The notes under the pieces are model-generated. The model saw only the letters and a program-made list of their open reading frames with translations. It did no database searches and was not told where the DNA came from. A program made the translations under genes and the position numbers. Positions 2,024 to 44,946 of a DNA stretch of 51,082 nucleotides are shown here, in pieces. Positions within the stretch are counted from its first letter, which is position 1; every line of letters starts with the position of its first letter. The stretch is from an uncultured Elusimicrobia bacterium (lineage in GTDB: Bacteria > Elusimicrobiota > Elusimicrobia > Elusimicrobiales > UBA9959), in assembly GCA_903879915.1 (NCBI GenBank), contig CAIRNJ010000086.1, positions 1-51,082 of the forward strand. Reading direction: 5' to 3'.

Positions 2024-2029
2024 AAGGCG

Positions 2030-4580: not shown

Positions 4581-4598
4581 AGTTAAAAAACCGTTCAG

Positions 4599-5618: not shown

Positions 5619-5625
5619 TTCATCC

Positions 5626-8600: not shown

Positions 8601-11600
8601 AGGAGGCCTGCGGGCCCAGTTCCACGAAGAGCCTGGCGCCGTCCTCGTAGGCGCGGCGGATCAGCGCGGGGAAATCCAGGCTGCGTATGGCCTGGGCCAC
8701 TATGGAATCGGCCGCGCTGTCGCGCGTTACGTCGTAGGATTTTTTCCAGGCGCCGCTGTAGAAGCGCACGCCGGGCGGCGGGTCGGTGGGGAACAAGTGC
8801 AGCTCGCGGTATTTCTTCTCCACCAGCTTGGCCGCTTCGAAATGTACCGTGGAGACGCCCTGCAGCGGCAGGAACACGCAGCCTAGGCCCTCCACCAGCG
8901 AGTTCACCGCCTGGCGGTAGCCGCCCACCACGCATTCCAGCGGCGCGTTCACTATCAGCAGCGCGGCGCGCTCGGCGCCTTTCAAAGCCATGCGTACATT
9001 GTCGGCGGGGCGGTCTATCACGCCCAGCACCCAGTCCACTTTCTCGTCCTTGGGCAGGTTCCAGAAGCGCCGCGCCGCGTCGCAGGGGCCCGCAAGGTCG
9101 CTGACGAACAGGCTGGATTCGTTGATGCGCCGCAGCATCTCGTCGCGCGCGGTCCAGGTGCGCGTGGCGAACAGCCCGGCCGTTTCGCCCAGGCTGTAGC
9201 CGATCACGAAAGCCGGCTCCACGCCCAGCAGGCGGACGAGGTCGCTGACGGCCGCGCCGTGCGCCACCGAGCCGAAGATCATGGACTTATAATCGTCGAT
9301 TATCTCCCGCTCCGTCTCGTCGCGCCAGCCGGCGCCCCACAGCATCCGCCACGGCACGAAATGATTGGGCACCATCTGGTTGCGCAGGTAGCCGCTCTCG
9401 GCGTCGAGCCGGCGCGGGATCTCGGGCCACTGCGTCCACAGCTCGCGGCCCATGCCGATATACTGGTTGCCGGAGCCCGGGAATACGAACGCTATGTTGC
9501 CGCGCCCGCCCTGGGGAGAGGGAGAATAGAATATGTTCTCGCGCAGAAAAAGCTTTTCAGGGTTGGCGCGCAGGCCGGCTTCGGCCTCTCCGCAAAGGGC
9601 GTTCAGTTCCTCTCCGCCGCGGGCCAGCACAACGCAGGCGCGGTTTTTGCCGGGCCTCGCCCCGGTATGGGCGAACCAGCCGCGGGCCAGCCTCTCAATG
9701 TTCGCGCCGGGCTCTTGCCGCGCCAGCCAGGCGCGGAGGTCGGACAGGCCGGCCAGTACGCCGGCCGCGTCGTCGTCCTCTATAGCGAACAGCGCCGCGC
9801 TGCGCGCGCCCAGCGGCTGGCGGCGTTCCAGTTCCGTCCGTTCCGGGGCGGTGGCGGCTTCCAGGCCTTCCATCACCACGTGGCCGCAGTTGCCGTCGGC
9901 GCCCAGCGCGCTTACTCCGGCCCTGCGCGGGCCCTCGGCGCGGTTGCGCAGCCAGTACTGGGGTTCCAGCGGTATGTGAAATCTTCTTTTCGCCCGCGCC
10001 AGCTCCGCCAGCGGGGAAATTTTCATCAGCGGGGGCAGTATCTCCTGGTACAGGGCCAGGGCGGTCTTGACCACCCCGGCCAGGCCGCAGGCGGCGCCGG
10101 TGTGGCCTATCACGGGCTTCACCGCGCCCAGCGCGCAGCACAGCTGCGCCGAGGAGATACCGTAAAAATCGGTCAGCGCTTCGGCTTCGGCCGCGTCTTC
10201 CGCGGGAACGCCGCTGCCGTGGGTTTCCAGGTAGCCGATGGTGGACGGGTCCACCTGCGCCTCGCCGTAAGCTTCGCGCAGCGCCGCGGCGTAGGCCGCG
10301 GGCGCGGGGGCGGTTTTGTCCACGCCGCCGCCCGAGGCGAAGCCGAGGCCTTTTATCACCGCGTAAACGCGGTCGCCGTCGCGGATGGCGTCGTCGAGCC
10401 GTTTTAAAATAAGGGCGGCGGCGCCTTCGCCCGGCACGGTGCCGGCGGCGGAAGTGTCGAAAGGCAGCGCCTGGCCGCTGTAGGGCCTGTCCAGTTCGGG
10501 TACGGCCAGCGCGCGCGGATCGCCGTCCACGGAGACCGCGCCGACAATAACAGTGTCCAGTTCGCCGGCGCGCAGCGCGCGCACGCCGGCCTCCAGCGCG
10601 CGCAGGCCCGAGGTTTCTTCGCTGGAAATAGTGAAGCTGGGGCCGCCCACGTGGAATTCCCGGGCTATGCGGCTGGCCACAATACCGCCCAGCGCGCCCA
10701 TGGTGCGGTTGGCCGACAGCGCGGGGCCGGCGGTATCGCGCAGGCCGGCCAGGAAATCTTTTTCTTCTTTTTCGGTCAGGCGCCAGCCCTGCTCCGCGGC
10801 CCGCCGGCGCGCGGTCTCGAGCAGCGCCCAGCGGAAATGGAAATTCGTAGTGTTAAGGTCGAGCCCCAGCCCAATGAAAACGCCTGCGTTCACCAGCCCT
10901 TTTTCGCCGGGCGCGTAATCGGCCACGGCCCTGGCCGCAACGTCCAGCATCAGCAGCTGCTGCGGCAGCATTTCTTCCAGCTCGCGGGGCGGTATCCGGT
11001 ACGCGTCGGCGGCCACGCCTACCTCGCGCAGGTAAAAGCCTTTTTCGCCGGCCCCGGCCAGGCCGCGGCGGCGCCCGGCCGGCAGTTCGGCCGGCGTCGG
11101 GCGGTTGGTGCCCAGCACTGTTTCCTGGAACTCCCGCAAACCTTTGAGCGCGCCGAAGCGGGCTTCCATGCCTACTATGGCCACCGGCACGGGAATGGCC
11201 GGGGCGGGCTTCGCTATGGCAGGGCGTACCGCCGGGGAGAACGTGCCGCCGTATTCTTCCACCAGAACGTGGGCGTTGATGCCGCCGAAGCCGAAAGCGC
11301 TCACCGCGGCGCGCCGCGGGGTTTTGCCGTCGCGCGCCACCCAGTCCTCGCAGCGGCTCTGCACGCGGAAAGGGCTGCCGGCCAGTTTTACCTTAGGGCC
11401 GGGCTTCGTGAAATTAGCGGTGGGCGGCAGGCTTTTGTTCTTGAAAGCCAGCAGCACTTTCATCAGGCCGGCCGAGCCGGCGGCGGTGAGCAGGTGGCCC
11501 ACGTTGGACTTCACCGAGCCCAGTACGCACTGGCCGGCGCTCCAGCCGCGCTCGCCCCAGAGCGTCTTAAGGCTTTCCACCTCGATGGGGTCGCCGGTTG

Positions 11601-12591
11601 GCGTGCCGGTGGCGTGGCACTCTATCAGGTCTATCTGCGACGGGGACAGCTTCGCCTGCCGGTAGGCCGCGCGCATAGCGTACAGCTGGCCGGCGGTGTT
11701 GGGGGCCAGGAGGCTGCCGCCGATATCGTTGGAAAGGCCGATGCCGGTTATCAGGCCGTAGATCTTGTCGCCGTCTCTGACCGCGTCGGCCAGGCGCTTG
11801 AGCACGAACATGCCGGCGCCTTCGCCCACTACCAGCCCGTCGGCGGCGGCGTCGAAAGGGGACGGCCTGCCCGAGGGAGAAAGGGCGCGCAGCTGCGCGA
11901 AGCCCATCTGGGTGTAAAGGCTGGACGGCCGCGAAACGCCGCCGGTGAGCATGGCGTCGGCGCGGCCGGAGCGCAGCGCGTCCACGGCCAGCTTTATGGC
12001 GTACAGCGAGGAGGCGCAGGCGGCGTCCAGCGTGAAGCTGCCGCCCGCCAGGCCCAGCGCGCGGGCGATAACTCCGCCGGGCAGCCCAGCCGCGCGGCGG
12101 TTGAGGGGGTCGGTGCGGGTAGTTAAATTCGTAAGGCCTTTGCCGAAAGCCGCGTTCTCGAAAGCGGGCAGCAGCGTTTCCCGGGCCAGCGCGGAAACGG
12201 CGTCCGTGGGCAGCACTATGTTGCCGATGATAACGCCGGTGCGGGCGCGGTTGATCTTATTGGGCTGCGCGTCGTAAAATGCCTGCCGCGCCGCGTGCAG
12301 CGCCAGGTGGAATACGGGGTCCAGCTTCTCTATGAAAGTCTCCCGCAGGTCCAGCCCCGCGGGGTCCAGCTTGAAATCCTCTATGAAGCAGGCCTTGAGC
12401 GAATACACTTTATCGGCCGCGCCTTTCTGCGGGTCGAAAGCGTCCTCGCCGGACAGCAGCCAGCGGCCCGCGGGCGCGTCCTTGGCCGAACAGATCCCTT
12501 CGGAAATGTTAGTCCAGAAGCGCTCGGGGTCGGGCGCGCCGGGGAAAATGCCGCCGGCGCCGACAATGGCGATGGGCTGAATTTCGGGCAT
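5626..12591 (-). CDS. pfaC: PfaC-type polyunsaturated fatty acid synthase, KS-CLF-AT-DH-DH
   Basis: A 2321-residue multidomain synthase. KS, residues 1-450: Cys192 (DAACASS), His326 (ECHATGT), His366 (KSNVGH). Chain-length-factor KS, 465-910: the active Cys is replaced by Glu659 (SSEETSG). AT, about 1030-1360: FPGSGNQY, Ser1133 in GYSLGE, His1250. An Ala/Pro linker and short helix (1380-1510) lead to two FabA-like double-hotdog dehydratases: DH1 1570-1940 with His1833 in HFIDDHVMPG, DH2 1980-2321 with His2220 in HFYQDPVCPG. Standard PfaC has KS-CLF-DH-DH, with the second AT on a separate PfaB; here the AT is fused in the middle, recalling thraustochytrid and myxobacterial arrangements. It needs PfaA and PfaD to work. 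Its ATG overlaps the pfaA stop (TAATG). Confidence 0.9.
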   Translation of the reverse strand: MPEIQPIAIVGAGGIFPGAPDPERFWTNISEGICSAKDAPAGRWLLSGEDAFDPQKGAADKVYSLKACFIEDFKLDPAGLDLRETFIEKLDPVFHLALHAARQAFYDAQPNKINRARTGVIIGNIVLPTDAVSALARETLLPAFENAAFGKGLTNLTTRTDPLNRRAAGLPGGVIARALGLAGGSFTLDAACASSLYAIKLAVDALRSGRADAMLTGGVSRPSSLYTQMGFAQLRALSPSGRPSPFDAAADGLVVGEGAGMFVLKRLADAVRDGDKIYGLITGIGLSNDIGGSLLAPNTAGQLYAMRAAYRQAKLSPSQIDLIECHATGTPTGDPIEVESLKTLWGERGWSAGQCVLGSVKSNVGHLLTAAGSAGLMKVLLAFKNKSLPPTANFTKPGPKVKLAGSPFRVQSRCEDWVARDGKTPRRAAVSAFGFGGINAHVLVEEYGGTFSPAVRPAIAKPAPAIPVPVAIVGMEARFGALKGLREFQETVLGTNRPTPAELPAGRRRGLAGAGEKGFYLREVGVAADAYRIPPRELEEMLPQQLLMLDVAARAVADYAPGEKGLVNAGVFIGLGLDLNTTNFHFRWALLETARRRAAEQGWRLTEKEEKDFLAGLRDTAGPALSANRTMGALGGIVASRIAREFHVGGPSFTISSEETSGLRALEAGVRALRAGELDTVIVGAVSVDGDPRALAVPELDRPYSGQALPFDTSAAGTVPGEGAAALILKRLDDAIRDGDRVYAVIKGLGFASGGGVDKTAPAPAAYAAALREAYGEAQVDPSTIGYLETHGSGVPAEDAAEAEALTDFYGISSAQLCCALGAVKPVIGHTGAACGLAGVVKTALALYQEILPPLMKISPLAELARAKRRFHIPLEPQYWLRNRAEGPRRAGVSALGADGNCGHVVMEGLEAATAPERTELERRQPLGARSAALFAIEDDDAAGVLAGLSDLRAWLARQEPGANIERLARGWFAHTGARPGKNRACVVLARGGEELNALCGEAEAGLRANPEKLFLRENIFYSPSPQGGRGNIAFVFPGSGNQYIGMGRELWTQWPEIPRRLDAESGYLRNQMVPNHFVPWRMLWGAGWRDETEREIIDDYKSMIFGSVAHGAAVSDLVRLLGVEPAFVIGYSLGETAGLFATRTWTARDEMLRRINESSLFVSDLAGPCDAARRFWNLPKDEKVDWVLGVIDRPADNVRMALKGAERAALLIVNAPLECVVGGYRQAVNSLVEGLGCVFLPLQGVSTVHFEAAKLVEKKYRELHLFPTDPPPGVRFYSGAWKKSYDVTRDSAADSIVAQAIRSLDFPALIRRAYEDGARLFVELGPQASCTRMIDKILGAQPHLARSACVKNQDGTLTILRLLARLIAERAPADLNALYGCGSPATAHQAAPAEKPMLRASLAVPPPVKVNWQPGAAPAAEPVKAETKAVPAAAVTAAARPLTAPQPVRPLPPLNLPPPAAAGSGPAYLQNFSAASAAKAKAHEVFLRLSNNFTEMQSRNIAFQNALLALGGRLPALPPVPAARPAPESAPGAETVTAAARTNVFMTREQCLEFAVGSIAKVLGAQFTAADTYPTRVRLPAEPLMLVDRILSVSGKAGSLTHGNVVTEHDIKPGAWYLDCGRIPTCIAVEAGQADLFLCGYLGIDDRTKGRAVYRLLDAEVTLHQGLPLPGQMIHYDINIERFARHGDIWLFFFNYESTVDGRPLISMKKGCAGFFTDEELAKGKGVVLTAEETAPAPGICPADWAPPAPAGAGHEAYDDAKVAALREGRYADCFGPAFADLPLTKPMGLPGGRMKLVDRVLELSPKGGRYGLGSIQGEMDIHPDDWHLACHFIDDHVMPGTLMYECCMHTFRIFLLRLGWVGEADGCWYEPVPGVMSRLECRGQVLGSTKKAMYEIIVKEIGYQPGGQPYALADAFMYADGKRIIHIHNMSIRMGGTTRADIERLWAGDAAQPAAAGPKKAIFDDASITAFAVGKPSEAFGGKYKIFDSERVIARLPGAPYKFLDRIVEIKNCRQWELAAGGVIEAEYDVPPGEWYFESGRQKSMPFAVLLEVALQPCGWLAAYLGSALTSPTDLSFRNLGGTAVQYAEVFPDAGILTTRVKITKVSQSGGMIIQDYDLEVLCKGRTVYKGATQFGFFSKKSLSEQLGVRGAARHTVTAEESARSQAIELAALPGLPDEKLIMLDAVETYIPAGGPKKEGFIRGLKKVNPGEWFFKAHFYQDPVCPGSLGLESFINLMKAAARQRWKDLPPGARFEAMALNEKHQWIYRGQIVQKNKLITVEAAITGADDQRKLLRADGFLIVDGLVIYQMKDFTIRIV

Positions 12592-15500
12592 TATAACGGC
12601 GTTGCGGTCAGCTCCTTTTTCATGAAAGCGGCGTTGAGGGACTTATCCACGGTGCTGTCATAGCCCTGCAGCCGGGCTATCAGCGTCCCTTTGTCGTCGG
12701 TAAAATCAATATCGGCCACGGCGCTGTGCGCGGAGGAACGCGTAACGGCGGCGGCCACGCGCACGCCGTTGGCGGGGAAGGGGGCGAACTGCCGGTACGA
12801 CGCGGCCGAGTTAGGCAGCGAGCAGGCGCCGGAATTCTCGAAGGTCCAGAGTATCATGCCCTGGAAAGCGGCGTCCAGCGCGGCGGGGTCGGCCACCCAG
12901 CGGTCGCGCAGCGGGTGGCGCAGCCACGAGCCGGGCGGCAGCGAGGCCGCCGCGTCCAGCACAATGCCTTTGTCCGAAAGGCCGGCCACGGAGCGGATGA
13001 AGCGCATGTCCTCGCCGTGGAAAAGTACCTGGCCGTAGGCCTGCTCCATGGAGCGGGCGTAGGGCTTCAGCGCGAAGTCGGGGGCCGGCGCCGGGGCTTT
13101 CGGCAGGCTGACGGCCAGGACTATCTCGGCGCCGGCGTGCAGTTCGCCGTTGGGGCCGCGCAGTTCGGCCGCCACCGAGAAGAAACCGTCTTTCTTCACG
13201 GCCTTGCCGGCCAGCACGGCTAATTTAACGGACGTGCCGCCCAGGATGACGCCTTTGTAGATCTTCAGGTTATTGAAACCGTGGAACAACAGGCCGGGGT
13301 TGCCGTGCAGCGCGCCGTGCGCCAGCCATTCGGTTATCATTGCCGTGGGTACTACGGCTTTGCCGTTGATGATATGCGATGCCAGGAAAGGCTGCTCTTC
13401 CAGCGAGACCGTGAACTCGGCCGCGGCCCTGCCGCCCGCCGCCGGGGGCGGCTCCTGCGCCGCGCCGGCCGGCCGCGCCACCACTATAACTTCCACCGCG
13501 CCGCTGTTGGCGGCCAGTTCGCTGACCAGGAATTTCCCGCCGGCCTCCAGCCCTATCACACCCACTCCTTCTTTGGCGAACAGCGCTTTAAGGTTGTCGT
13601 TTACCATGCCGCCGTCCCAGGGGCCCCAGTTGAAGGCCACCGCGCGGCAGTCGGGCAGGCGGCGCGCTATCAGGCGGGCCGTTTTGTTCAGCACTTCGTT
13701 GGCCATGGCGTAATCGCACTGGCCGGTGCGCCCGAAGCGCGCCGTGGACGAAGAGTACAGCGCGAGTATCTTAAGTTTGTTCAGGTCCAGCGCCGTCAGG
13801 ATATTGCGCAGCCCTGTAACTTTTGTGTCGAACACCGAATCGAACTGCTCGGCGGTCTTGTCCAGGATGAGCTTGTCGGCCAGCACTCCCGCGCCGTGCA
13901 CGAAGCCGCGGATAGGCCCCAGTTCTTTGGTGATCTTCTCTACCGCGGCGCTGACCGACTGCCTGTCGCGTATATCCGCGGAGAAATAGACCGCGCGCGA
14001 GCCGGCGGCTTCGAAGCGGTTGAGCTGCGCGCGTATTTCGCGGGCGGCCAGTATCTTGCGGCACTCTTCGCCGGCCAGCTTGGGCGTCATGCCCGGGTTG
14101 CGAGCGATAAGGGTTTTCTTGATGTCGGCCTCGGTGGCGCAGGCGGCCAGCCAGGCTTCTTCGGCGGCGGGCAGCGGGCTGCGGCCCAGTATGGCCAGTT
14201 TCGGGCCGCAGGCGGCGGCCAGAGCGGCGGCGGCTTCGGCGGTCACGCCGCGCGCTCCGCCGGAAATAAGCACTACGTCGCCTTTCTCCAGCGGCAGCTT
14301 GCCGCCTTGCACCTGCTCGGAGTGACTGAGCAGCACTACTTTGCTGCCGGTTTCCGAAATGCCCATTTCAACGGGGCCTTTGAAAAAAAGCTCGTCGGCC
14401 ACGGTCTGGGCCACCGACACCGTGTGCTGCCAGTCGGCGGCGGCGTCCAGCGCGCGGCAGGAAACTTCCGGCCATTCGAAGGCCGCGGTCTTTGTCAGCC
14501 CGGCCAGCCCGCCGTAAACCGGGTTCTGCTCGGACTTCAGGCCCGAGAGGCCGAAGCAGCCGTCCAGGCGCGAGACCGTCATCAGGCACGCGCCGGAATT
14601 CTTACCGGCGGCGCGCAGGGCGGGGCCGGCCACCTGGGCCAGGCGGAAAGCGTTCTTCAGGAAGCGCTCGGAATCCTCCGCCCAGAAAGACTTGGCGGAC
14701 AGCTTCGCGGCGGGGGCCAGGATGATCAGCCCGGCCAGGCCTTCCGAGGGCTTCAGCGCGCCGGGATTATCCATTGAGATTTTCTGCGCCCTGTAGCCGC
14801 GGCCGGAAAGTTCCTTGACAATGCCGCCGGCCAGGCCGGAGCCGTCGTCGGTAACCCAGACGGGCAGGCGATGGTCCAGCGCTATTTTTTCCCTGGCTCC
14901 GGCGGGGCTGAAATCAGTCACCTTGATGGTGCCGCGCGTGATCACCGATTCGCGGGGCTGCGCCGGTTCGCTTTTGGCCGCCGGGGCCGCCGCAACGGCA
15001 GCCTGCGGCATGCCGGCCGTGAGGAAGGCCGTTACCTGCCGCAGCGTGCGGATGGAGCCCAGCTGTTCGGGTGTGATGCGCGGCGCGGAGGGGAGTTTTT
15101 CCTGGAGTTCGGAAAGAATGGCCACGCGCTTTATCGAATCGATGCCCAGGTCTGACTCCATGTCCATATCCTGGTTCAAAGATTCAGCCGGGTAGCCGGT
15201 CTGGGCCGAAACTATGCCCAGCAGCACCTGCGCCACGTCGCCGCCGCCGGCGGGAGCCGCGGCGGGCGCCGGCTGCGCGGCAGCCTGCGGCATACCGGCC
15301 GACAGATAAGCCGTTACCTGGCGCAGCGTGCGTATGGAGCCCAGCTGCTCGGGCGTGATGCGCGGCGCGGAGGGGAGTTTTTCCTGGAGTTCGGAAAGAA
15401 TGGCTACGCGCTTGATGGAATCTATGCCCAGGTCGGATTCCATGTCCATGTCCTGGTTCAGGGATTCCGCGGGATAGCCGGTCTGCGAGGAAACTATGCC

Positions 15501-18500
15501 CAGCAGTACCTGCGCCACGTCTGCGGCGGCGGCGCCGGCCGGGGCCGCGGCGGCAGCGGGCTGCGCGGCCGTCTGCTGCGGCATGCCGGCCGCCAGGTAA
15601 GTGGTGACCTGCCGCAGCGTGCGGATGGAGCCCAGCTGTTCGGGCGTGATGCGCGGGGCGGAGGGGAGTTTTTCCTGCAGTTCGGAAAGAATGGCCACGC
15701 GCTTTATCGAATCGATGCCCAGGTCGGACTCCATGTCCATGTCAGGGTTCAGGGATTCGGCGGGATAGCCGGTCTGCGAGGAAACTATGCCCAGCAGAAC
15801 AGCCTCTATATTAACACCGGAGGCCGGGGCGGCGGCGGGCTGCGCCTGTGCGGGCATGGGTGCGGGGGCCGCCTGCACGGGCCGCGCAGCGGGGGCCGGC
15901 TGGAACGCCGACAACGGGTTTAACGGGGCGCCGCTGAACATTTGCTGCTGCTGGTCCACCAGCGCCTGGAAAGAGCGCTGCGCGGCTTCCTGGCCTTCCA
16001 GGAACCGGGCGTGCAGCAAAGCCGTCTGCTCCTGCATCCTTTGCAGGGCGGCCATGCTTTCCTGCGCCACGCGCAGGGCGTCGGAAGTAAAAGCGTGCGC
16101 GGCGGGGTGAGCCGCGGCAGCGGGCTGCGCCTGCTGTACCGATACCTGCTGAATAACTTTTTTCGGGGCTCCAGCCGGGCGGGGCGAGCGGTAGTTCGCG
16201 CCGGTCAGTTTCACCGCCAGCTTGGAAACTTTCTTTTCCAGCGCGTCTTTCACGCCGGCCTCTCCGTTCTCCCAGGCGGCCAGGTTCAGACGGCAGCCCA
16301 GCGCGGCCAGGCGGGCCAGCGCGCGGGCGGCGTCGGCAATACCCGAGCGTTTGCCGCCGGAGGCGTCGATGGCGAAAGCCGTGTGTTCTTTGCCGGCCAG
16401 TATGGCCGACACCAGCCCGGTAAGCCGGGCGCCGGGGCCCACTTCAAGGAAGGTCCTCAGGCCGGCCGCGTACATCTTCTCCACCATGGCGGTGAATTCC
16501 ACCGGGGAGGCCAGCTGCGAGGCCAGGAGCTCGCGGGACTTGTCCGCGGAGTCGGGATAGACGCCGGCGGTTTTATTGGCGTAAACGCGCGTCTGCGGTT
16601 TGTTGAATTTCGTTTTCCCCAGAGCGGCGGCGAATTCTTTCTGCGCGCCGGCCACCAGCGGGCTGTGGAAAGCCGCCGACACCTGCAGCGGCGTATTTTT
16701 AAGCGAGCGTTTCGTACAGCACTCGGCGGCCCGTTTTATTTCTTCGGTGCGGCCGGACAGCACGAACTGCGCCGGGGCGTTCTTGTTGGCGATTATAAGG
16801 TCCAGCTTCTCTTCCTTCATAACCTTCTCTACGTCCGCCAGGGGGGCTTGCACCGCCAGCATGCCGCCGCGGTCTCCGCCGCCGGCCGCCATCAGGCTGC
16901 CGCGCAGCTTCGACAGCGCGAACAGGGAAGAGGTATCGAAAGCCCCGGCGGCGCACAGGGCCGCCAGCTCGCCGTAGCTGTGCCCGGCGAAAGCGTCGGG
17001 CGTCAGGCCGAAGCCGTTCAGCACGCGGTAAGCGCCCAGCGACGCCGCGCCCAGCGCGGGCTGCGCTATTTTAGTATCGCGCAGGTCGTCGGCCTGCGCC
17101 TGTTTCTCCGCCGGCGTAAAAACGGCGCGGGGGTAGATGAAATCTGACAGCGGCTTGGTTGCGCCGAACGCTTTGTCCGCGGCGGCCAGCGTGTCCAGCG
17201 CGGCGGGGAAGCGGCAGACGATGTCCCGCTGCATGCCGGGGTACTGCGCGCCCTGGCCGGGGAACAGCACGGCCAGCTTTTCAGGCGCGCCCGAGGCGAA
17301 GAAAATACCGTCGGGGGTGGTCCAGGTTCTGCTGTTCTTCTGCGCGTCCAGGTTGGACAGCGCGGAAGTTATGAGCTTCTCGGCGTCCTGCCCGCGCTCC
17401 AGCACGAAAGTAAGCCGGGCGGCGTCGGTGTTCTTGAAAGCCGCGCGCGAGCGCATAGCTTTTACACGTACGCCGTCCCAGTCCAGGCCTTTCCAGGCGG
17501 CCAGGTCTTTCTTAAGCGTTTCCGTGTCCGGGCCCGATATTGCGGCTATCTGCACATCGCCGTCCCAGTCGGGTTGCTGCTTCTCTGCTTTGTATTCTTC
17601 CAGCACCGCGTGGAAATTGGCGCCGCCGAAGCCCAGCGCGCTGACCGCGGCGCGGCGGGGGTGGTCTTTCTTTATCCAGGGGCGGAGCTCGGTGTTCAAA
17701 TAAAAGGGTGTAGTGCCGGCCGCCAGCTGCTTCAGGGGCGTGGTAACTTTAATGGTGGGGGGCAGGGTTTTATTGTAAAGGGACAGCGCGGCTTTGATGA
17801 TGCCGGCGGAGCCTGCCGAGGCTTTGGTATGGCCTATCATGGATTTTACCGAGCCGAGAGCGCACCAGGCGCCATCCTTGGCGCTGCCGTAAACTTCGGT
17901 GAGGGCGCCCAATTCCACGCCGTCGCCGACGGTAGTGCCGGTGCCGTGCGCTTCCACCAGTTCCACGGTGGAGGGGGCGACGCCGGTAACTTCGTAGGCG
18001 TTCCTGAGCGCGCGCGCCTGGCCTTCGGAGCTGGGCGCGTAAATGGCTTTGCCTTTGCCGTCGGAGGAGGAACCCACGCCTTTAAGCAGCGCGTAGATCC
18101 TGTCGCCGTCCTTCACCGCGTCTTCCAGGCGCTTTAAAACAATCATGCCCAGGCCTTCGCCCAGGGCTGTGCCGTCGGCGGAGGCGTCGAAAGGCTTGGC
18201 ATCGCCGGAGGCCGAAAGGGCCGGCGTTTTGCTGAAGCACATGTACATAAAAATATCGTTGAAGCAGTCCACCCCGCCGGTGACCACCATGGAGGAGCGG
18301 CCCGCCGCCAGTTCCAGTGAAGCCATATGCACGGCGGAAAGCGAACTGCCGCAGGCGGCGTCCACCACCGAGTTCGTGCCGCCCAGGTTGAAGCGGTTGG
18401 CTATGCGGCCGGCCACCACATTGCCCAGCAGGCCGGGGAAAGAGCTTTCCTGCCAGGGGACATAGTCCTCCTGCATGCGTGAAATAATGGCTTCGGCGTC

Positions 18501-18980
18501 CGCGCCGGTAATGCCGAATTCGGACAGGGCTTTGCGCCATTTGGGATGGCCCAGCCGCGCGCCGAGGGGAATAACGAGCTCCAGCGCGCCGGTAACGCCC
18601 AGCACCACGCTGACGCGGCTGCGGTCGAACTCGCGGCCGGGACCGTAGCCGGCGTCTTCCAGCGCCATCTTGGCGGTGAGCAGGCCCAGCAGCTGGGCGC
18701 TGTCGGTGGCTTCCAGCGCGTTGGGCGCCAGGCCGAATTCGGAGGGATCGAAATCCACGGGCAGGATGAAGCCGCCGCGGCGGGCGTAGGTCATGTCCGG
18801 GCGCTTGGGGTTCTTGTCGTAATGTTCTTCCGGCAGCCAGTGGGACGCGGGGATGTCGGTGATGGCGTCCACGCCGGTCTTAATATTGGCCCAGAACCGG
18901 CGCGCGTTCTCCGCCTTGGGGAAAAGGCAGCCGATGCCGACTATGGCGATGGGTGACTGGACGGGTTCTTTAGCGCTCAT
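12591..18980 (-). CDS. pfaA: PfaA-type polyunsaturated fatty acid synthase, KS-AT-ACPx3-KR-DH
   Basis: A 2129-residue synthase. KS, residues 1-460: Cys210 (DAACGSS), His345, His384. AT, 565-870: FPGQGAQYPG, Ser668 in GHSYGE, His772. A helical linker rich in Gln (960-1015) precedes three tandem ACPs (about 1055-1135, 1153-1230, 1248-1325), each with a DSIKR phosphopantetheine site (Ser1091, Ser1188, Ser1282). KR, about 1360-1830: SGGARGVT and catalytic Tyr1757. The C-terminal PS-DH-like double hotdog, 1855-2120, keeps His1869 (HIINGKAVVP) and Asp2036 (DAAFQ). This is the PfaA order; marine PfaA proteins usually have five or more ACPs, so three is low. The AT probably loads malonyl units. It follows pfaD by 51 bp and overlaps pfaC by one base. 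Confidence 0.92.
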   Translation of the reverse strand: MSAKEPVQSPIAIVGIGCLFPKAENARRFWANIKTGVDAITDIPASHWLPEEHYDKNPKRPDMTYARRGGFILPVDFDPSEFGLAPNALEATDSAQLLGLLTAKMALEDAGYGPGREFDRSRVSVVLGVTGALELVIPLGARLGHPKWRKALSEFGITGADAEAIISRMQEDYVPWQESSFPGLLGNVVAGRIANRFNLGGTNSVVDAACGSSLSAVHMASLELAAGRSSMVVTGGVDCFNDIFMYMCFSKTPALSASGDAKPFDASADGTALGEGLGMIVLKRLEDAVKDGDRIYALLKGVGSSSDGKGKAIYAPSSEGQARALRNAYEVTGVAPSTVELVEAHGTGTTVGDGVELGALTEVYGSAKDGAWCALGSVKSMIGHTKASAGSAGIIKAALSLYNKTLPPTIKVTTPLKQLAAGTTPFYLNTELRPWIKKDHPRRAAVSALGFGGANFHAVLEEYKAEKQQPDWDGDVQIAAISGPDTETLKKDLAAWKGLDWDGVRVKAMRSRAAFKNTDAARLTFVLERGQDAEKLITSALSNLDAQKNSRTWTTPDGIFFASGAPEKLAVLFPGQGAQYPGMQRDIVCRFPAALDTLAAADKAFGATKPLSDFIYPRAVFTPAEKQAQADDLRDTKIAQPALGAASLGAYRVLNGFGLTPDAFAGHSYGELAALCAAGAFDTSSLFALSKLRGSLMAAGGGDRGGMLAVQAPLADVEKVMKEEKLDLIIANKNAPAQFVLSGRTEEIKRAAECCTKRSLKNTPLQVSAAFHSPLVAGAQKEFAAALGKTKFNKPQTRVYANKTAGVYPDSADKSRELLASQLASPVEFTAMVEKMYAAGLRTFLEVGPGARLTGLVSAILAGKEHTAFAIDASGGKRSGIADAARALARLAALGCRLNLAAWENGEAGVKDALEKKVSKLAVKLTGANYRSPRPAGAPKKVIQQVSVQQAQPAAAAHPAAHAFTSDALRVAQESMAALQRMQEQTALLHARFLEGQEAAQRSFQALVDQQQQMFSGAPLNPLSAFQPAPAARPVQAAPAPMPAQAQPAAAPASGVNIEAVLLGIVSSQTGYPAESLNPDMDMESDLGIDSIKRVAILSELQEKLPSAPRITPEQLGSIRTLRQVTTYLAAGMPQQTAAQPAAAAAPAGAAAADVAQVLLGIVSSQTGYPAESLNQDMDMESDLGIDSIKRVAILSELQEKLPSAPRITPEQLGSIRTLRQVTAYLSAGMPQAAAQPAPAAAPAGGGDVAQVLLGIVSAQTGYPAESLNQDMDMESDLGIDSIKRVAILSELQEKLPSAPRITPEQLGSIRTLRQVTAFLTAGMPQAAVAAAPAAKSEPAQPRESVITRGTIKVTDFSPAGAREKIALDHRLPVWVTDDGSGLAGGIVKELSGRGYRAQKISMDNPGALKPSEGLAGLIILAPAAKLSAKSFWAEDSERFLKNAFRLAQVAGPALRAAGKNSGACLMTVSRLDGCFGLSGLKSEQNPVYGGLAGLTKTAAFEWPEVSCRALDAAADWQHTVSVAQTVADELFFKGPVEMGISETGSKVVLLSHSEQVQGGKLPLEKGDVVLISGGARGVTAEAAAALAAACGPKLAILGRSPLPAAEEAWLAACATEADIKKTLIARNPGMTPKLAGEECRKILAAREIRAQLNRFEAAGSRAVYFSADIRDRQSVSAAVEKITKELGPIRGFVHGAGVLADKLILDKTAEQFDSVFDTKVTGLRNILTALDLNKLKILALYSSSTARFGRTGQCDYAMANEVLNKTARLIARRLPDCRAVAFNWGPWDGGMVNDNLKALFAKEGVGVIGLEAGGKFLVSELAANSGAVEVIVVARPAGAAQEPPPAAGGRAAAEFTVSLEEQPFLASHIINGKAVVPTAMITEWLAHGALHGNPGLLFHGFNNLKIYKGVILGGTSVKLAVLAGKAVKKDGFFSVAAELRGPNGELHAGAEIVLAVSLPKAPAPAPDFALKPYARSMEQAYGQVLFHGEDMRFIRSVAGLSDKGIVLDAAASLPPGSWLRHPLRDRWVADPAALDAAFQGMILWTFENSGACSLPNSAASYRQFAPFPANGVRVAAAVTRSSAHSAVADIDFTDDKGTLIARLQGYDSTVDKSLNAAFMKKELTATPL
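15006..15818 (-). repeat. Tandem ACP-coding DNA repeats within pfaA
   Basis: Three direct repeats of about 285 bp, one per ACP (phosphopantetheine serines 97 and 94 residues apart). The cores from the GYPAESLN motif to the RTLRQVT motif are identical or nearly so in protein, and very similar in DNA, whereas the Ala/Pro linkers between them differ. This suggests recent duplication or gene conversion of the cores. Confidence 0.9.
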
Positions 18981-39221: not shown

Positions 39222-39881
39222 ATGAGGAATTTTAGCGCCGCAGCCGCGATACTAACCCTGATAACAGCCAACGCCCTGGCTTTCGACCTGCCGGGGCTCG
39301 ACAAGGACGCCGTCCTGAACAGCCTGCCCGCCGCAAGCCGGCCGCAGCCTGCCGGCCCTTCCGTTAAGGCGGTGGAGCAGCTGCGCGCCGAAGCCGCCGC
39401 CGACCCCGACAGGTTCATAGACGAGCGCACCCCGGAAGAGGTAAGCCTGGCGTTCGGGCTGGAAGCCCCTTCGCGCGTGCGCATCTCCAACGAAATAGCC
39501 GCCCTGGCGGCCGTGCGCATCACGGTGGACCTTACCGCGCAGCGGGTCACGATAGCTTCCCCCGAGCTTAAAGCGGCGTACAAGATCTCCTCCGGCAAGG
39601 CGGGCCACCGGACCCCCGGCAGCGGCCAGTGCTTCAAGCCCGATTTTATGGAAAGCATGCACCATTCCAGTCTTTATAACAACGCCCCGATGCCCAACGC
39701 GGTGTTCTTCAACGGCAACATCGCCATCCACGCCACCGAATCGGAGAACCTGCTCGGCCAGCCGGCTTCGCACGGCTGCGTCCGCACCTCCAGGGCAGAC
39801 TCCAGGAAGATCTTCGACGCGGTGCTGGCGCACGGCCGGGCCAACACCAGCGTCTGCGTGGTAGGCGCCCCCCCAAAATAA
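39222..39881 (+). CDS. L,D-transpeptidase (YkuD domain), exported
   Basis: A 219-residue protein with a signal peptide (ends near ANALA-F). The YkuD catalytic domain (about 98-215) has His170 (IAIHAT) and the SHGCVRTS motif with His184 and nucleophile Cys186. These enzymes form 3-3 peptidoglycan cross-links or attach proteins to the wall. The N-terminal 75 residues are Ala/Pro-rich with no domain I recognise. A strong terminator follows, so the gene is probably monocistronic. Confidence 0.92.
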   Translation: MRNFSAAAAILTLITANALAFDLPGLDKDAVLNSLPAASRPQPAGPSVKAVEQLRAEAAADPDRFIDERTPEEVSLAFGLEAPSRVRISNEIAALAAVRITVDLTAQRVTIASPELKAAYKISSGKAGHRTPGSGQCFKPDFMESMHHSSLYNNAPMPNAVFFNGNIAIHATESENLLGQPASHGCVRTSRADSRKIFDAVLAHGRANTSVCVVGAPPK

Positions 39882-39901: not shown

Positions 39902-39930
39902 AAAAAGCCCGTTGCCGAACGGGCTTTTTT
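39902..39930 (+). terminator. Intrinsic terminator after the L,D-transpeptidase gene
   Basis: AAAAAGCCCGTT (39902-39913), loop GCCG, AACGGGCTTTTTT (39918-39930): an A/T-flanked perfect stem with a run of six T. Confidence 0.93.
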
Positions 39931-39981: not shown

Positions 39982-41073
39982 ATGGAAGGGACCTGCAAAC
40001 TTGACGAGATAGCGGCAGGGAACGTGCTGCGCTACAAAGGCACCGAATGGAACGTAGTTGAAAAGGACGTCTGCAAGCAGTCCGACGCCTACGTTGAACA
40101 GCAGTGGACGCTGCGCAATTCCGCCTCCGTGGAAGCCTACCTGCTCAGGACCGAAGAGAAAAAACCCGAGGGCAGCAAGGTGATCTGGGTGTTCACGCAC
40201 CAGACCTCCCTGCAGGGCGTGACCTATGAGATAATTCCCGGGGTCTGGCGCGCGTTCACGGAGCTCGAAATGCCGGCCGGCCCTCCCTCCACGGTAAAAT
40301 TCTCGAACGAATACCTTACCTTCGACGGCGAAACCTCCGGCAGGGCCGAGGACGACGAGGGCGAAACGGTGACCAAGGTCACCTGGGACTACTATACCAC
40401 CGACAGGCGCACGAACCTGGCCATCGAGATCTGGAAAGAAGAGGACCGGGACTACCCCGAGGCCTACGACGGGAGAGTGGTGGAGCCGTCCGCCTTCGAG
40501 GTGCTGGATAAAAAGGTCAGGGTCTCGCCCCGCCGCGCCTCCTCCGGCGGCGACGGCCAGCTGGAAATAAAGCCGGGCGAAGAGGTGAAGAGCGCATTCA
40601 CCATGATCGGCATGAGCGGCTTTTTCTTCCTTATCATCGGCGTGCCGATGGATTATTATCTTTCTTTCGGGCCGGCGGTCTGCCTGGCGATACTGATGGT
40701 CCTGCTGCGCCCCCCGCTGTGGCTGTGGTTCTCTTCCGCCCTGATCTGGGCGGCCATGACAGCGCTGGTCTGGTTAAAGGGCTTCGGGGTTTCGTTCTGG
40801 TATATCGCCGCGGCCTGCGCCGTACTGTCCGCCGCGCTGCCCAGGCTTATGGCCGCAAAGTTCCCGGCGCAGGACAGCGGCCGGTACTACCGTACGGCTA
40901 TTTTCGGGGTGCTGCCCGCGGTCTGGACCTACAGTTTCCTGGAATACCTTATTTACGCCCCCGGGCCAAGGGCTTTTTACCAGGTGGCCGCGGCCATAGT
41001 GCTGCCGCTGGCGGTTGCGGGCGTATGCGGGCTGATAAGCTTTTTTACCGAGGGGACTTCCGCAAATGGCTGA
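39982..41073 (+). CDS. DUF4178-domain membrane protein
   Basis: A 363-residue protein. The N-terminal 175 residues are a soluble beta-rich domain resembling DUF4178 (YKGTEWNVVEKDVCKQSDAY, TWDYYTTDR), and the C-terminal half (about 205-360) has five to six membrane helices. DUF4178 genes are known to cluster with spermidine-synthase-like and DUF350 genes in PspA-associated envelope-stress neighbourhoods; both partners are here, but no pspA is seen. It heads a run of four genes with overlapping ends (8 bp into the next gene). Confidence 0.6.
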   Translation: MEGTCKLDEIAAGNVLRYKGTEWNVVEKDVCKQSDAYVEQQWTLRNSASVEAYLLRTEEKKPEGSKVIWVFTHQTSLQGVTYEIIPGVWRAFTELEMPAGPPSTVKFSNEYLTFDGETSGRAEDDEGETVTKVTWDYYTTDRRTNLAIEIWKEEDRDYPEAYDGRVVEPSAFEVLDKKVRVSPRRASSGGDGQLEIKPGEEVKSAFTMIGMSGFFFLIIGVPMDYYLSFGPAVCLAILMVLLRPPLWLWFSSALIWAAMTALVWLKGFGVSFWYIAAACAVLSAALPRLMAAKFPAQDSGRYYRTAIFGVLPAVWTYSFLEYLIYAPGPRAFYQVAAAIVLPLAVAGVCGLISFFTEGTSANG

Positions 41074-43114
41074 ACTTAAAACGATAGAGCGTAACGGTTC
41101 CCTGGCCTTCTACATAGACGGGAGCCTGCAGTTCGACACGCGCGACGAGGGGATCTATCACGAATCCCTGGCGCTGCCGACGGCCTCCCTGGCGGCGGTC
41201 CGGTTCAAGCGGCCGCTGGCGGCGCTCATCCTGGGCGGGGGCGACGGCCTGGCGCTGCGCGAGGTCCTGAAATTCAAAGAAGTGGCCTCGGCCGACCTGG
41301 TGGATTTCGACCCCGGCGTGCTGGAGCTCGGGCGCACGGCTTTTGCCGGCTATAACGCCGGGTCGCTGGCCGACCCCCGGGTGAAAGTCACCTGCACGGA
41401 CGCGGCAAGCTTCCTGCAAAGCGCGCGGCGCAAGTACGACATCGTGCTGGCGGATTTTACGTTCCCCGGCGACCTGGCGGGCTGTTCGCTGTTCACGGAG
41501 GATTTTTTCGGGAAGATCGGCGGCGTGCTTTCAAGGCGCGGCGTCTTCGCGCTGAACGCGGTGTCGCCGGAAAAATTCTCGCCGGCCTACTGGGCCGTCT
41601 ATAAAACTTTGCGCGCGGCCGGGCTGTATCCCAAGCCGCTGTCCGCCGCCATCCCGTCGTTCTCGGCGCACGGCTACGGCCGCTGGGGCTTTTTCTTCTC
41701 CTCGCCGCGCGCCATCACGCCCATGGAACTGGGCTCCCTGCGCATCCCCGTGCCGGCCGGCTTTCTTACGCCGGAAAAGCTGCGCGAAGGTATGCGCTTC
41801 GGCCGGGCGTCGGCCCTGTTCGGGGCGGGCATAGCCGCTTCCGTGAAAAAGCCGTCGGACCTGCTGGCGCTGCTGAACATGCCGGGTCCGGCCGCGGGCG
41901 GCGGCGAAAGCCTCGATTTTTTCAGCCGCTCCAACCGCGCGCTGCCCGGCGGCGGCTTCCCCGCCGACCCCGCGCTCTGGAGCGCGGAAACTCTGGCGGC
42001 CTGGGAGGACAGCCTGGCCGCCATGCTCGCCGCTTTCGACTGGGACCAGCTGCTGGCCGAGGCGGGCAGGCTCTCGGGCAAGGCCGCGGCCAGGCTCAGC
42101 GGCGAGCTGGACGAGTTCAGGGCGGAACTGCCCTCGCTGTTCTCCGGCGCCGGCAGCCGCGCGCAGCGGGTTTACCGGGTGCTGGCGGCGCTGGGCATAC
42201 TGCTGATAGTGATAAACATGGCCTACCCGGACAACGCTTTCGCCAAGGGTTATTCCTCCGGCGGCGGCGGCGACGTGGATATAGTTTTCATCTCCAATAA
42301 ATCGGCTTCGCTGTTCCACGGGCTGGCTTTCCAGTTCCCGGGCATGTACCACGGGCTGGTGCCGGACAGCGCCGGGAAAATGTATCCGCAGAAAAGCTTC
42401 ACCTACAGGGACCCGGCCGCCGCCGGCGGACCGGCGCAAGGGCTTAAGACCGAACAGTCTTTTTACGCGCTTACCGACAATCTCCGCCTGACCGCCGGCG
42501 GCAGCGCGTTCATGGTGCTGGCCCCGCAGCCCTACGCTTACAAGCTGGAGGCCGACAGTTACGTGCTGCTGAAGGATAACTCGCCCGAGCCGCTGTTCAG
42601 GTTCCGGCCCGACCCCGAAACTTACGGCGCCCTGGCCTACAATATCGAGCTGCAGCGCAAAGCGCTGGAAAAAGCTTTGGCCGGCCACAGCAAGTGGCTG
42701 GCCTGGGCCGCCCCCGCCGGAGTTATACTGCCGCCGATCAAAAGCGAAACGCAGGAAATGCTGAACATGCAGGCTATAAAAGCGGCGCTGGACAATGCCG
42801 CCGGCAAACTGGGCAAGGCTCCCGGCGACGTAAGGGTGCCGGTGAATTTCGTGAAGCTGGCGCCCGGGGTATACGTTTCCCTGGATACCGGCGCGGTGGT
42901 GTTCCTGCGCGAGGACGGCGACCTGGTGAGCTGCCAGATGCCGGCGCTGCCCGTCTACGAGGACGCCGTCCAGCTGCGGCCCGGCCCCGACCTGACCGCT
43001 TTCATGCGGGCCCTGCTGGTCAGCAAAGGGCCGATGCTGCCCGCCGGGAACCCGGCGCGGCTGCTGGGGGAAGTCAAAGAAGATGTTTATCAGAACTTTA
43101 TCTCCGGAAGATAG
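41066..43114 (+). CDS. Spermidine-synthase-like (PABS) domain fused to a membrane-anchored C-terminal domain
   Basis: A 682-residue protein. Residues 1-240 are a spermidine-synthase-like Rossmann methyltransferase fold: ILGGGDG (55-61), DFDPGVLELGR (81-91), and Asp130 in VLADFTFPGD where true synthases have D-x-S-D-P, so the amine-binding site is altered. A helical linker (300-365) leads to one membrane helix (370-393, ending AYPDNAFA) and a C-terminal domain of about 290 residues that I do not recognise, probably outside the cytoplasmic membrane. The altered acceptor motif makes ordinary spermidine synthesis doubtful. Overlaps its neighbours by 8 and 32 bp. Confidence 0.7.
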   Translation: MAELKTIERNGSLAFYIDGSLQFDTRDEGIYHESLALPTASLAAVRFKRPLAALILGGGDGLALREVLKFKEVASADLVDFDPGVLELGRTAFAGYNAGSLADPRVKVTCTDAASFLQSARRKYDIVLADFTFPGDLAGCSLFTEDFFGKIGGVLSRRGVFALNAVSPEKFSPAYWAVYKTLRAAGLYPKPLSAAIPSFSAHGYGRWGFFFSSPRAITPMELGSLRIPVPAGFLTPEKLREGMRFGRASALFGAGIAASVKKPSDLLALLNMPGPAAGGGESLDFFSRSNRALPGGGFPADPALWSAETLAAWEDSLAAMLAAFDWDQLLAEAGRLSGKAAARLSGELDEFRAELPSLFSGAGSRAQRVYRVLAALGILLIVINMAYPDNAFAKGYSSGGGGDVDIVFISNKSASLFHGLAFQFPGMYHGLVPDSAGKMYPQKSFTYRDPAAAGGPAQGLKTEQSFYALTDNLRLTAGGSAFMVLAPQPYAYKLEADSYVLLKDNSPEPLFRFRPDPETYGALAYNIELQRKALEKALAGHSKWLAWAAPAGVILPPIKSETQEMLNMQAIKAALDNAAGKLGKAPGDVRVPVNFVKLAPGVYVSLDTGAVVFLREDGDLVSCQMPALPVYEDAVQLRPGPDLTAFMRALLVSKGPMLPAGNPARLLGEVKEDVYQNFISGR

Positions 43115-44105
43115 GCCCGCCTGGGAGGCGCTGGTAAAGCGCAGCCCCGGGAGCGGCTTCATGCAGAGCTGGGCCTGGTCCGAGTTCAAGGCCGCCCAGG
43201 GGCAGTCAGTGCTGCGGCTCGGCATCTTCGACGGCGGGGAACTTGAGGGCGGCGCGCTGGTCTATTCCGTGGAGTCCGGGCTTTCGCCGCTGCAACTGCC
43301 GCACGGCCCGGTGCTGCCCTGGGGCGAACCCCTTAAAGCCGCGCAGTGCCTTGAATTGCTCAAGACCCGGCTGGCCGAAGCCGCCGGCAGCTCGGGCGCG
43401 CCGCTGGCCAGGCTGGAGCCGCTGCTGGAGGGCGCGCTGCCCGCCTGCCTGGAAAAATTCCCGCGCGCGCCGCTGGACCTGGCGCCCACCCCCACGCTGC
43501 TGACGGATATTTCCGGCTCCGACGACGAGCTTCTTGCCGCCATGCAGCCCAAGGGCCGCTATAACGTGCGGCTGGCGCTGCGCAAGGGCGTGGAAGTGGA
43601 CGCCGCCGCCGGCGCGGAAGGGCTGGAGGATTTCTACGGGCTTTTCGAGCTTACCAGCGCCCGCCACGGCTTTAACGGCGAGCCGCTGTCCTTTTTCGCC
43701 GGGCTGCTGGAAAAGCTGGGCCCGTCCGGCGCGGCAAAACTTTATTTCGCCCGGTATAAAGGCATGACGCTGGCCGCCGCGGTGGCCGTGTTCTACGGCG
43801 GCAAAGCCACCTACCTGTACGGGGCCAGCGCCCCGTTCCTGCGCTCGGCCATGGCGCCTTACGCCCTGCACTGGAAGATAATGCGCGACGGGCGCGCCCT
43901 GGGCTGCCGGGTATACGATTTCTACGGCATAGCGCCGGAGGGCCAGCCGCAGCACGCTTATTCCAGGTTCACGCAGTTCAAGCTGCGTTTCGGCGGCCGC
44001 CGGGCCGTTACCTGCGGGGCGCGCGACCTGTATTTCTACCCGCGCCTGGCGCGCCTGCTGGTGGATACTCTTTCGAAGCGGGAAAAAGGAGTCTGCAATG
44101 TTTGA
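43083..44105 (+). CDS. FemAB-like aminoacyltransferase (GNAT fold)
   Basis: A 340-residue protein of the FemAB/FemX (peptidoglycan-bridge, methicillin-resistance) family. Recognisable features are the N-terminal SGFMQSWAWSEFKAAQG, the centre MQPKGRYNVRLALRKGVEV with its Lys/Arg-rich transition, and the C-terminal ALHWKIMRDGRALGCRVYDFYGIAP, ending in FTQFKLRFGG. Family members transfer amino acids from aminoacyl-tRNA to peptidoglycan precursors, or act on other amines. The start lies 32 bp inside the preceding gene, with GAAGAT-type purines before it. Its setting beside a spermidine-synthase-like gene raises the possibility of a polyamine or peptide modification. Confidence 0.85.
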   Translation: MFIRTLSPEDRPAWEALVKRSPGSGFMQSWAWSEFKAAQGQSVLRLGIFDGGELEGGALVYSVESGLSPLQLPHGPVLPWGEPLKAAQCLELLKTRLAEAAGSSGAPLARLEPLLEGALPACLEKFPRAPLDLAPTPTLLTDISGSDDELLAAMQPKGRYNVRLALRKGVEVDAAAGAEGLEDFYGLFELTSARHGFNGEPLSFFAGLLEKLGPSGAAKLYFARYKGMTLAAAVAVFYGGKATYLYGASAPFLRSAMAPYALHWKIMRDGRALGCRVYDFYGIAPEGQPQHAYSRFTQFKLRFGGRRAVTCGARDLYFYPRLARLLVDTLSKREKGVCNV

Positions 44106-44946
44106 ATTTGCCCTTTCGCTGGTCAAAGCCGCCGGGTATATAGTTATCGGGGTGGCGCTGTGCTACCTGGGTAAAACGATAAGGGCCCGGATCCCGCAAT
44201 GGAAGAATACCGACGCCGGCATAATTTCCGGCGGCGGCGACGCGCTGGCGCTGAGCTCTGGCGCCTATTACCTGGCGGTGCTGCTGAGCCTCGGCGGGCC
44301 CATCTCCTGGGCTTCGGATTCTTTGGCGCTGGGCCTGGCCGAGGCTTTTGTTTTCGGGCTGCTGGCGGTGCTGCTGTTGAACCTTTCGGTGCTTATCGCC
44401 GAGAAAACCTACCTGGCCAGGTGGAAGCTGGCCGCGGGGATAAAAGCCGGCGACGCCGGCGCCGGGCTGGCCGAGGGCGCGCATTATATAGCGCTGGGCC
44501 TGATGATAATGGGCGCGTCGTGGGGCGACTCCGGCGGCCCCGGTATCATGCTCTGTTTCTGGCTGCTGGGCCAGATCTTTCTGTGGCTGGCGCTCACGGC
44601 CTACCTGAAAATATTCAGCCTGAACATGCCGGCCAGCCTGGACGGCAATTTCCCGGCCGCGCTGAGCATGGCGGGGGGGATGATAGCTTTCGGCAACGTG
44701 GTGCGCGCGGCCATTTCCGGGCCTTTCCTGGGCTGGGCCAGGAGCGGGCTGGAGAGCGCCGGCTATTTCGTTTTCGGTTTCGCCGCCCTGCTGGGCGCGC
44801 GCTGGCTGGCCGACGCCTGGCTTTTCCCCAAAGCCACGTTCAACGGCGAGATCTTCAAAAAAACCCCGCCCAACCGGGCGGCCGGCATACTCGACGCCCT
44901 GCTTTTTATCGGGGTTTCCATACTGCTGGGCTGGGTGCTGGCCTGA
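44098..44946 (+). CDS. DUF350 membrane protein (two repeats)
   Basis: A 282-residue protein with about eight membrane helices in two similar halves, each with the DUF350 character of small, Gly/Ala-rich helices (for example SGGGDALALSSGAYYLAVLLSL and FPAALSMAGGMIAFGNVVRAAI). Single-repeat relatives such as E. coli YjfL occur in the yjf envelope-stress operon. It starts 8 bp inside the FemAB-like gene and closes the four-gene run. Confidence 0.75.
   Translation: MFEFALSLVKAAGYIVIGVALCYLGKTIRARIPQWKNTDAGIISGGGDALALSSGAYYLAVLLSLGGPISWASDSLALGLAEAFVFGLLAVLLLNLSVLIAEKTYLARWKLAAGIKAGDAGAGLAEGAHYIALGLMIMGASWGDSGGPGIMLCFWLLGQIFLWLALTAYLKIFSLNMPASLDGNFPAALSMAGGMIAFGNVVRAAISGPFLGWARSGLESAGYFVFGFAALLGARWLADAWLFPKATFNGEIFKKTPPNRAAGILDALLFIGVSILLGWVLA

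Follow-up and report, generated by a model that had tools for sequence, protein, structure and literature searches.

The window analysed here, a stretch of 51,082 nucleotides from an uncultured Elusimicrobia bacterium (contig CAIRNJ010000086.1), carries an operon of four overlapping genes encoding a DUF4178 protein, a spermidine-synthase-like (SpdSyn) protein, a FemAB-like aminoacyltransferase and a DUF350 membrane protein (Table 1). Comparative analysis reveals that the FemAB-like enzyme is an integral member of this operon, since the gene order and overlaps recur in relatives, FemAB occurs in exactly the 12/32 genomes of the genus that hold the set, and related sets are found in other taxa. 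Furthermore, the acceptor-pocket residues of the enzyme suggest that it places its amino acid onto an amine other than a cell-wall precursor. On the broad scheme that sequences and structural models outline, a membrane-bound module that would aminopropylate and/or aminoacylate an amine, we put roughly even chances.

According to the list of open reading frames (ORFs), all four genes lie on the + strand and overlap by 8 bp (DUF4178/SpdSyn), 32 bp (SpdSyn/FemAB) and 8 bp (FemAB/DUF350), as a preliminary description of this DNA had stated, and ribosome-binding-like stretches can be read 5' of several of them. It can fairly be inferred that the four overlapping genes form one translational unit. 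Pfam searches identified Spermine_synth (E=1.3e-25), FemAB (E=1.6e-28, 100 bits) and DUF350 (E=6.9e-30, in two stretches; the number of transmembrane helices is an estimate) in the corresponding products, and a DUF4178 match (E=1.7e-5) just above its cut-off. All DUF4178 counts are lower bounds because a family search can overlook DUF4178 proteins of the window's type, as one did with the window's own, a weakness that leaves the FemAB survey unaffected.

To the genus sample of 32 Elusimicrobiota genomes the window's own genome contributes one of the 12 that harbor a SpdSyn gene of the operon type. The order DUF4178-SpdSyn-FemAB-DUF350 is kept in 11/11 other holders, one contig stopping before DUF350, and the overlaps at the three junctions of these homologues are 8/14/20 bp, 32/4/1/68 bp and 8/4 bp. 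A FemAB of the operon type is absent from the other 20 genomes; the preliminary description had named loss of FemAB from the clusters of close relatives as the observation that would overturn its proposal, and FemAB was found in all 12 holders. A Pfam search of 19 genus genomes located FemAB only in the seven holding the set, and across 341 genomes of the phylum close FemABs (at least 46% identity) lie within the set in 15/15 cases. Pairwise distances correlate among the four proteins (r=0.94-0.98), as expected of genes travelling together. The flanks mostly differ among the 11 same-genus homologues, with only G002 (L033) close to the window's flank and G031 giving partial matches, and this turnover rules out that the neighbouring YkuD, HEAT/NlpC and two-component genes belong to the operon. 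Conserved order and exact co-occurrence within the genus likewise rule out FemAB as a chance neighbour, and general peptidoglycan machinery of the genus is excluded because no FemAB passed the thresholds used in genomes lacking the set.

Within Elusimicrobiota, related sets were identified in another genus of the family, g12 (L096, L097), and in a further family (L053, on the same contig as L090). Beyond the phylum, they occur in Methylomirabilota (L052, with SpdSyn read in two frames), in Pseudanabaena sp. UWO311 (L054) and in Omnitrophota (L050). In Omnitrophota the last gene encodes a single, shortened DUF350 of 93 residues (L050:7984-8265) in place of the double form. A Sericytochromatia contig (L051) presents SpdSyn and FemAB with DUF4178 and DUF350 undetected, a pattern that suggests a core made up of the two enzymes. 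The inferred FemAB tree places the cluster FemABs in a single clade (support 99/96). In this clade the Elusimicrobiota sequence from L053 groups with Methylomirabilota, suggesting that the set has moved between phyla. A plasmid search returned distant FemABs only. In Pseudanabaena sp. UWO311, a pyridoxal-phosphate-dependent decarboxylase gene lies divergently beside the DUF4178 gene (L054:3445-4542, -); its product weakly resembles carboxynorspermidine decarboxylase, with a match (E 3.6e-10) that falls far short of the cut-off.

The set contrasts with ten loci in other Elusimicrobiota families (L088, L089, L091-L095, L099-L101) that encode DUF4178 and a fusion of SpdSyn to seven transmembrane helices (7TM-SpdSyn). 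DUF4178 and the SpdSyn domain are common to both, but the SpdSyn proteins of these loci span ~450-535 residues where complete, against 682 here, and retain an intact motif (DFPDP or DLPDP, DxPDP) in 9/9 loci covering it, whereas the second Asp is replaced by Phe, Leu or Tyr in the operon described here. None of the ten loci encodes FemAB, the weak match in L093 being an unlikely 104-residue frame, and at two of the loci visual inspection picked out a short DUF350-like frame.

Gene sets resembling this one have been described in connection with PspA. The group-2 operon of PspA-CesT/Tir consists of DUF4178, a 7TM-SpdSyn fusion, a DUF350 protein with eight transmembrane helices (8TM) and a lipoprotein (e.g. 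AAN56744-47; PMC11237479), whereas the ATP-grasp ligase belongs to a separate group with DUF2491, DUF1190 and a four-helix (4TM) DUF350, variants of which include S-adenosylmethionine (AdoMet) decarboxylase (PMC11237479). The preliminary description, in which DUF4178, SpdSyn and DUF350 were usual companions of both of these enzymes, had merged the two groups. Both are indeed absent from the locus, as it noted, and the genome holds a speD-speE pair elsewhere; because they belong to another operon group, FemAB is not simply their replacement. They are components of the group-3 polyamine operon of the phage-shock-protein (PSP) system, and neither occurs in the four-gene set. With the group-2 operon the set shares DUF4178, a double DUF350 and a PRK03612-type spermidine-synthase domain. 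It differs in possessing FemAB, a changed acceptor motif, and a SpdSyn protein that lacks the N-terminal 7TM region: the fold starts at residue 1 and is followed by a single predicted transmembrane helix and an extracytoplasmic domain. No counterpart of the separate small group-2 lipoprotein (Ctha_1186 domain) was seen, and the extracytoplasmic domain of SpdSyn may stand in for it. The main text of PMC11237479 does not mention FemAB; in the literature searched, DUF4178 is named only in that paper, and no paper names both FemAB and DUF350.

As DUF4178, 8TM DUF350 and SpdSyn are all partners described with PspA-CesT/Tir (PMC11237479), the operon could be a PspA-type envelope-stress module, in which FemAB-mediated conjugation tunes membrane or envelope charge and sensing by DUF4178 and DUF350 outweighs the chemistry. 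We regard this as unlikely, given that neither the window's genome nor any of 32 relatives gave a match to PspA (PF04012; controls positive 9/14), that no ATP-grasp ligase was recognised in the four-gene set, and that no PSP component was found among the scanned neighbours in Pseudanabaena and Omnitrophota. A role alongside PspA in the same genome is ruled out by the missing match; no PspA-linked stress role can therefore be claimed here, and the context cited in the preliminary description is partly wrong.

The predicted structure of the FemAB-like protein is confident (AlphaFold2, mean predicted local distance difference test 93.1). Its best structural match is Staphylococcus aureus FemX (6snr; Z 37.1, root-mean-square deviation [rmsd] 2.3 over 320 residues), followed by FemA, Weissella viridescens FemX (Z ~32) and the streptothrisamine transferases Sba18/Sbb17 (Z 29), with the MprF group trailing at Z 18.6 and below. 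In W. viridescens FemX, Lys36, Arg211 and Tyr215 are important for binding of the substrate, UDP-MurNAc-pentapeptide, and Phe304-Lys305 is essential to catalysis (PMC4964394). The corresponding residues here are K36, E200, F204 and F299-K300; of these, K36 and F299-K300 were placed by motif and by the 6snr alignment. Like both FemX enzymes, the protein combines the tandem GNAT fold with equivalents of Lys36 and Phe304-Lys305, the catalytic pair being kept in 18/18 aligned cluster members. In contrast, Arg211 is replaced by Glu throughout the cluster and Tyr215 by Phe in 17/18 members, the remaining one having Tyr. Five of six distant FemABs from the phylum retain Arg at the first of these positions, and four or five of those five retain Tyr at the second; the sixth has neither. 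The Arg211 position is occupied by His, Arg, Asn, Ala and Phe in five other non-cluster homologues. The Glu/Phe change thus marks the cluster clade, Glu being present in 18/18 members against Arg in most distant FemABs of the phylum.

Membership of the FemAB family, the FemX fold as nearest match, and conservation of Lys36 and Phe-Lys are what would be expected of an ordinary interpeptide-bridge enzyme that modifies peptidoglycan precursors beside incidental or regulatory neighbours. This explanation appears improbable: the two substitutions fall on residues that matter for binding of UDP-MurNAc-pentapeptide, five FemABs of the phylum outside the cluster retain Arg, with Tyr in four or five of these, and the gene is patchily distributed (12/32 genus genomes) and always accompanied, where the contig allows, by the same three partners. 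Because only Lys36 remains of the Lys36/Arg211/Tyr215 acceptor set, we classify the protein as FemABX-like rather than as a peptidoglycan FemX. Its acceptor is unlikely to be UDP-MurNAc-pentapeptide, the residues are compatible with an amine, and Glu at position 200 would suit a cationic acceptor. Fold and residues fit a predicted aminoacyl-tRNA-dependent transferase, in keeping with the tRNA-dependent conjugation that the preliminary description envisaged, with an envelope component as a possible acceptor. There is precedent for such an acceptor within the fold, as a relative, Orf11, glycylates streptothrisamine, an amine-bearing small molecule (PMC12945691), and Sba18/Sbb17 were solved with this compound (9wqw-9wqy). 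These enzymes belong to secondary metabolism and share 22-23% identity with the protein analysed here.

The SpdSyn domain (residues 1-265) superposes on polyamine aminopropyltransferases, among them thermospermine synthase and the Thermus enzyme, with Z 30 (6bq2: Z 30, rmsd 2.0 over 248 residues; the list of structural matches covers residues 1-267). The protein did not reach the NCBIfam equivalog cut-off for a polyamine aminopropyltransferase, its best match being PRK03612 with 190.7 bits against 472 and restricted to the C-terminal part of that model. The protein shares with spermidine synthase the fold, the GGGDG motif and the proton-abstracting Asp, and differs from it in the transmembrane helix, the C-terminal beta/alpha domain, predicted to be extracytoplasmic with moderate model confidence, and the substitution of the diamine-anchoring Asp. 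Among the SpdSyn cluster members there is no variation in GGGDG or in the first Asp of the DxTDP motif. D60, D130 and the Q-DE-YHE stretch are invariant in 17 members from several phyla, and the second Asp of DxTDP is replaced in all of them. Spermidine synthase of Kluyveromyces lactis uses the equivalent residues to capture the aminopropyl group of decarboxylated S-adenosylmethionine (dcSAM), to remove a proton from putrescine and to anchor the distal end of the diamine (PMC10146546). Loss of the anchoring Asp suggests a different acceptor or a different mode of binding it. The loss would also suit a methyltransferase or non-catalytic binder, with FemAB alone performing the chemistry, for instance on a protein or lipid, as would the lower conservation of the rest of the SpdSyn protein. 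We consider this distinctly unlikely, since the dcSAM-capturing D60, the proton-abstracting D130 and Q-DE-YHE are invariant in the 17 members (roles from PMC10146546). Directly after the transmembrane helix, residues 384-396 form a conserved NMAYPDNA(F/Y)AKGY stretch that resembles a signal-peptidase AxA site, and the extracytoplasmic domain might thus be released.

Taken together, these data are consistent with a horizontally spread four-gene operon that would encode a membrane-anchored two-enzyme module. The SpdSyn domain, supplied with dcSAM by a separate SpeD, would transfer an aminopropyl group to an acceptor other than an ordinary diamine; in this genome AdoMet_dc was found only at the speD-speE pair, which lies on another contig. 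Judging from fold and residues, FemAB would then use aminoacyl-tRNA to attach an amino acid to an amine, in the simplest case the product of the first step or a polyamine-like relative. DUF4178, the double DUF350 and the SpdSyn transmembrane helix would hold the reaction at the inner membrane, and the extracytoplasmic domain of SpdSyn might receive, sense or hand on the product. The strictly sequential version, in which a membrane-bound acceptor is aminopropylated from dcSAM and then capped by FemAB to give an aminoacyl-aminopropyl envelope modification, is doubtful and is put forward tentatively.

Several observations weigh against this interpretation. The cluster FemABs retain Lys36, an acceptor-binding residue of FemX, and the link between E200 and its function rests on alignment. 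The housekeeping SpeE-like protein that adjoins SpeD (L035:8082-9059, -) carries GGGEG and DLPSP and thus also lacks the second Asp, so that this loss alone does not prove a new acceptor. The cross-phylum loci were collected with a FemAB query and are biased towards FemAB-bearing loci; they therefore cannot tell how often such operons are without FemAB. Finally, the operon may combine two reactions that have nothing to do with each other.

The operon is separated from the upstream YkuD gene by a terminator-like hairpin. This YkuD L,D-transpeptidase gene (39222-39881), just 5' of the operon, is closely shared only with the near-identical G002 locus. Elsewhere in the window, positions 992-18980 (-) hold two giant synthase ORFs, one with ketosynthase (KS), acyltransferase, acyl carrier protein repeats, ketoreductase and dehydratase, the other with a KS pair and FabA-like repeats, adjoining a KAS III-like protein, an alpha/beta hydrolase and an AMP-binding ligase. 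This gene order resembles a polyunsaturated-fatty-acid synthase plus OleABC hydrocarbon locus.

Table 1. Features of the four-gene operon and its upstream boundary (window coordinates).
Feature	Position	Strand	Remarks
Terminator-like near-perfect inverted repeat with T/A tails (AAAAAGCCCGTT-GCCG-AACGGGCTTTTTT)	39902..39930	none	Read by eye, coordinates counted by hand
DUF4178 protein, 363 residues	39982..41073	+	DUF4178 domain at residues 12-169, then ~4-5 hydrophobic segments at residues 205-353
SpdSyn protein, 682 residues	41066..43114	+	Fold at residues 1-265, transmembrane helix, C-terminal beta/alpha domain
F133 codon, place of the second Asp of DxTDP (diamine anchor)	41462..41464	+	Phe/Leu/Tyr in 17/17 aligned members
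Transmembrane helix of SpdSyn, residues ~365-387	42158..42226	+	Predicted
FemAB-like tandem-GNAT aminoacyltransferase, 340 residues	43083..44105	+	
E200 codon, place of FemX Arg211 (acceptor binding)	43680..43682	+	Glu in 18/18 cluster members
DUF350 membrane protein, 282 residues	44098..44946	+	Two DUF350 repeats

Fusions of the 7TM-SpdSyn type reportedly do not restore spermidine synthesis (a finding attributed to Li et al. 2019), so spermidine need not be what operons of this class make. An aminoacyltransferase that is always present, together with its charge-swapped acceptor pocket, provides a lead to an aminopropylated, aminoacylated amine. The variant may also be open to experiment beyond metagenomes, as one named strain of Pseudanabaena carries it. 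If true, the sequential pathway would be one not described before, present in several phyla including Cyanobacteria.

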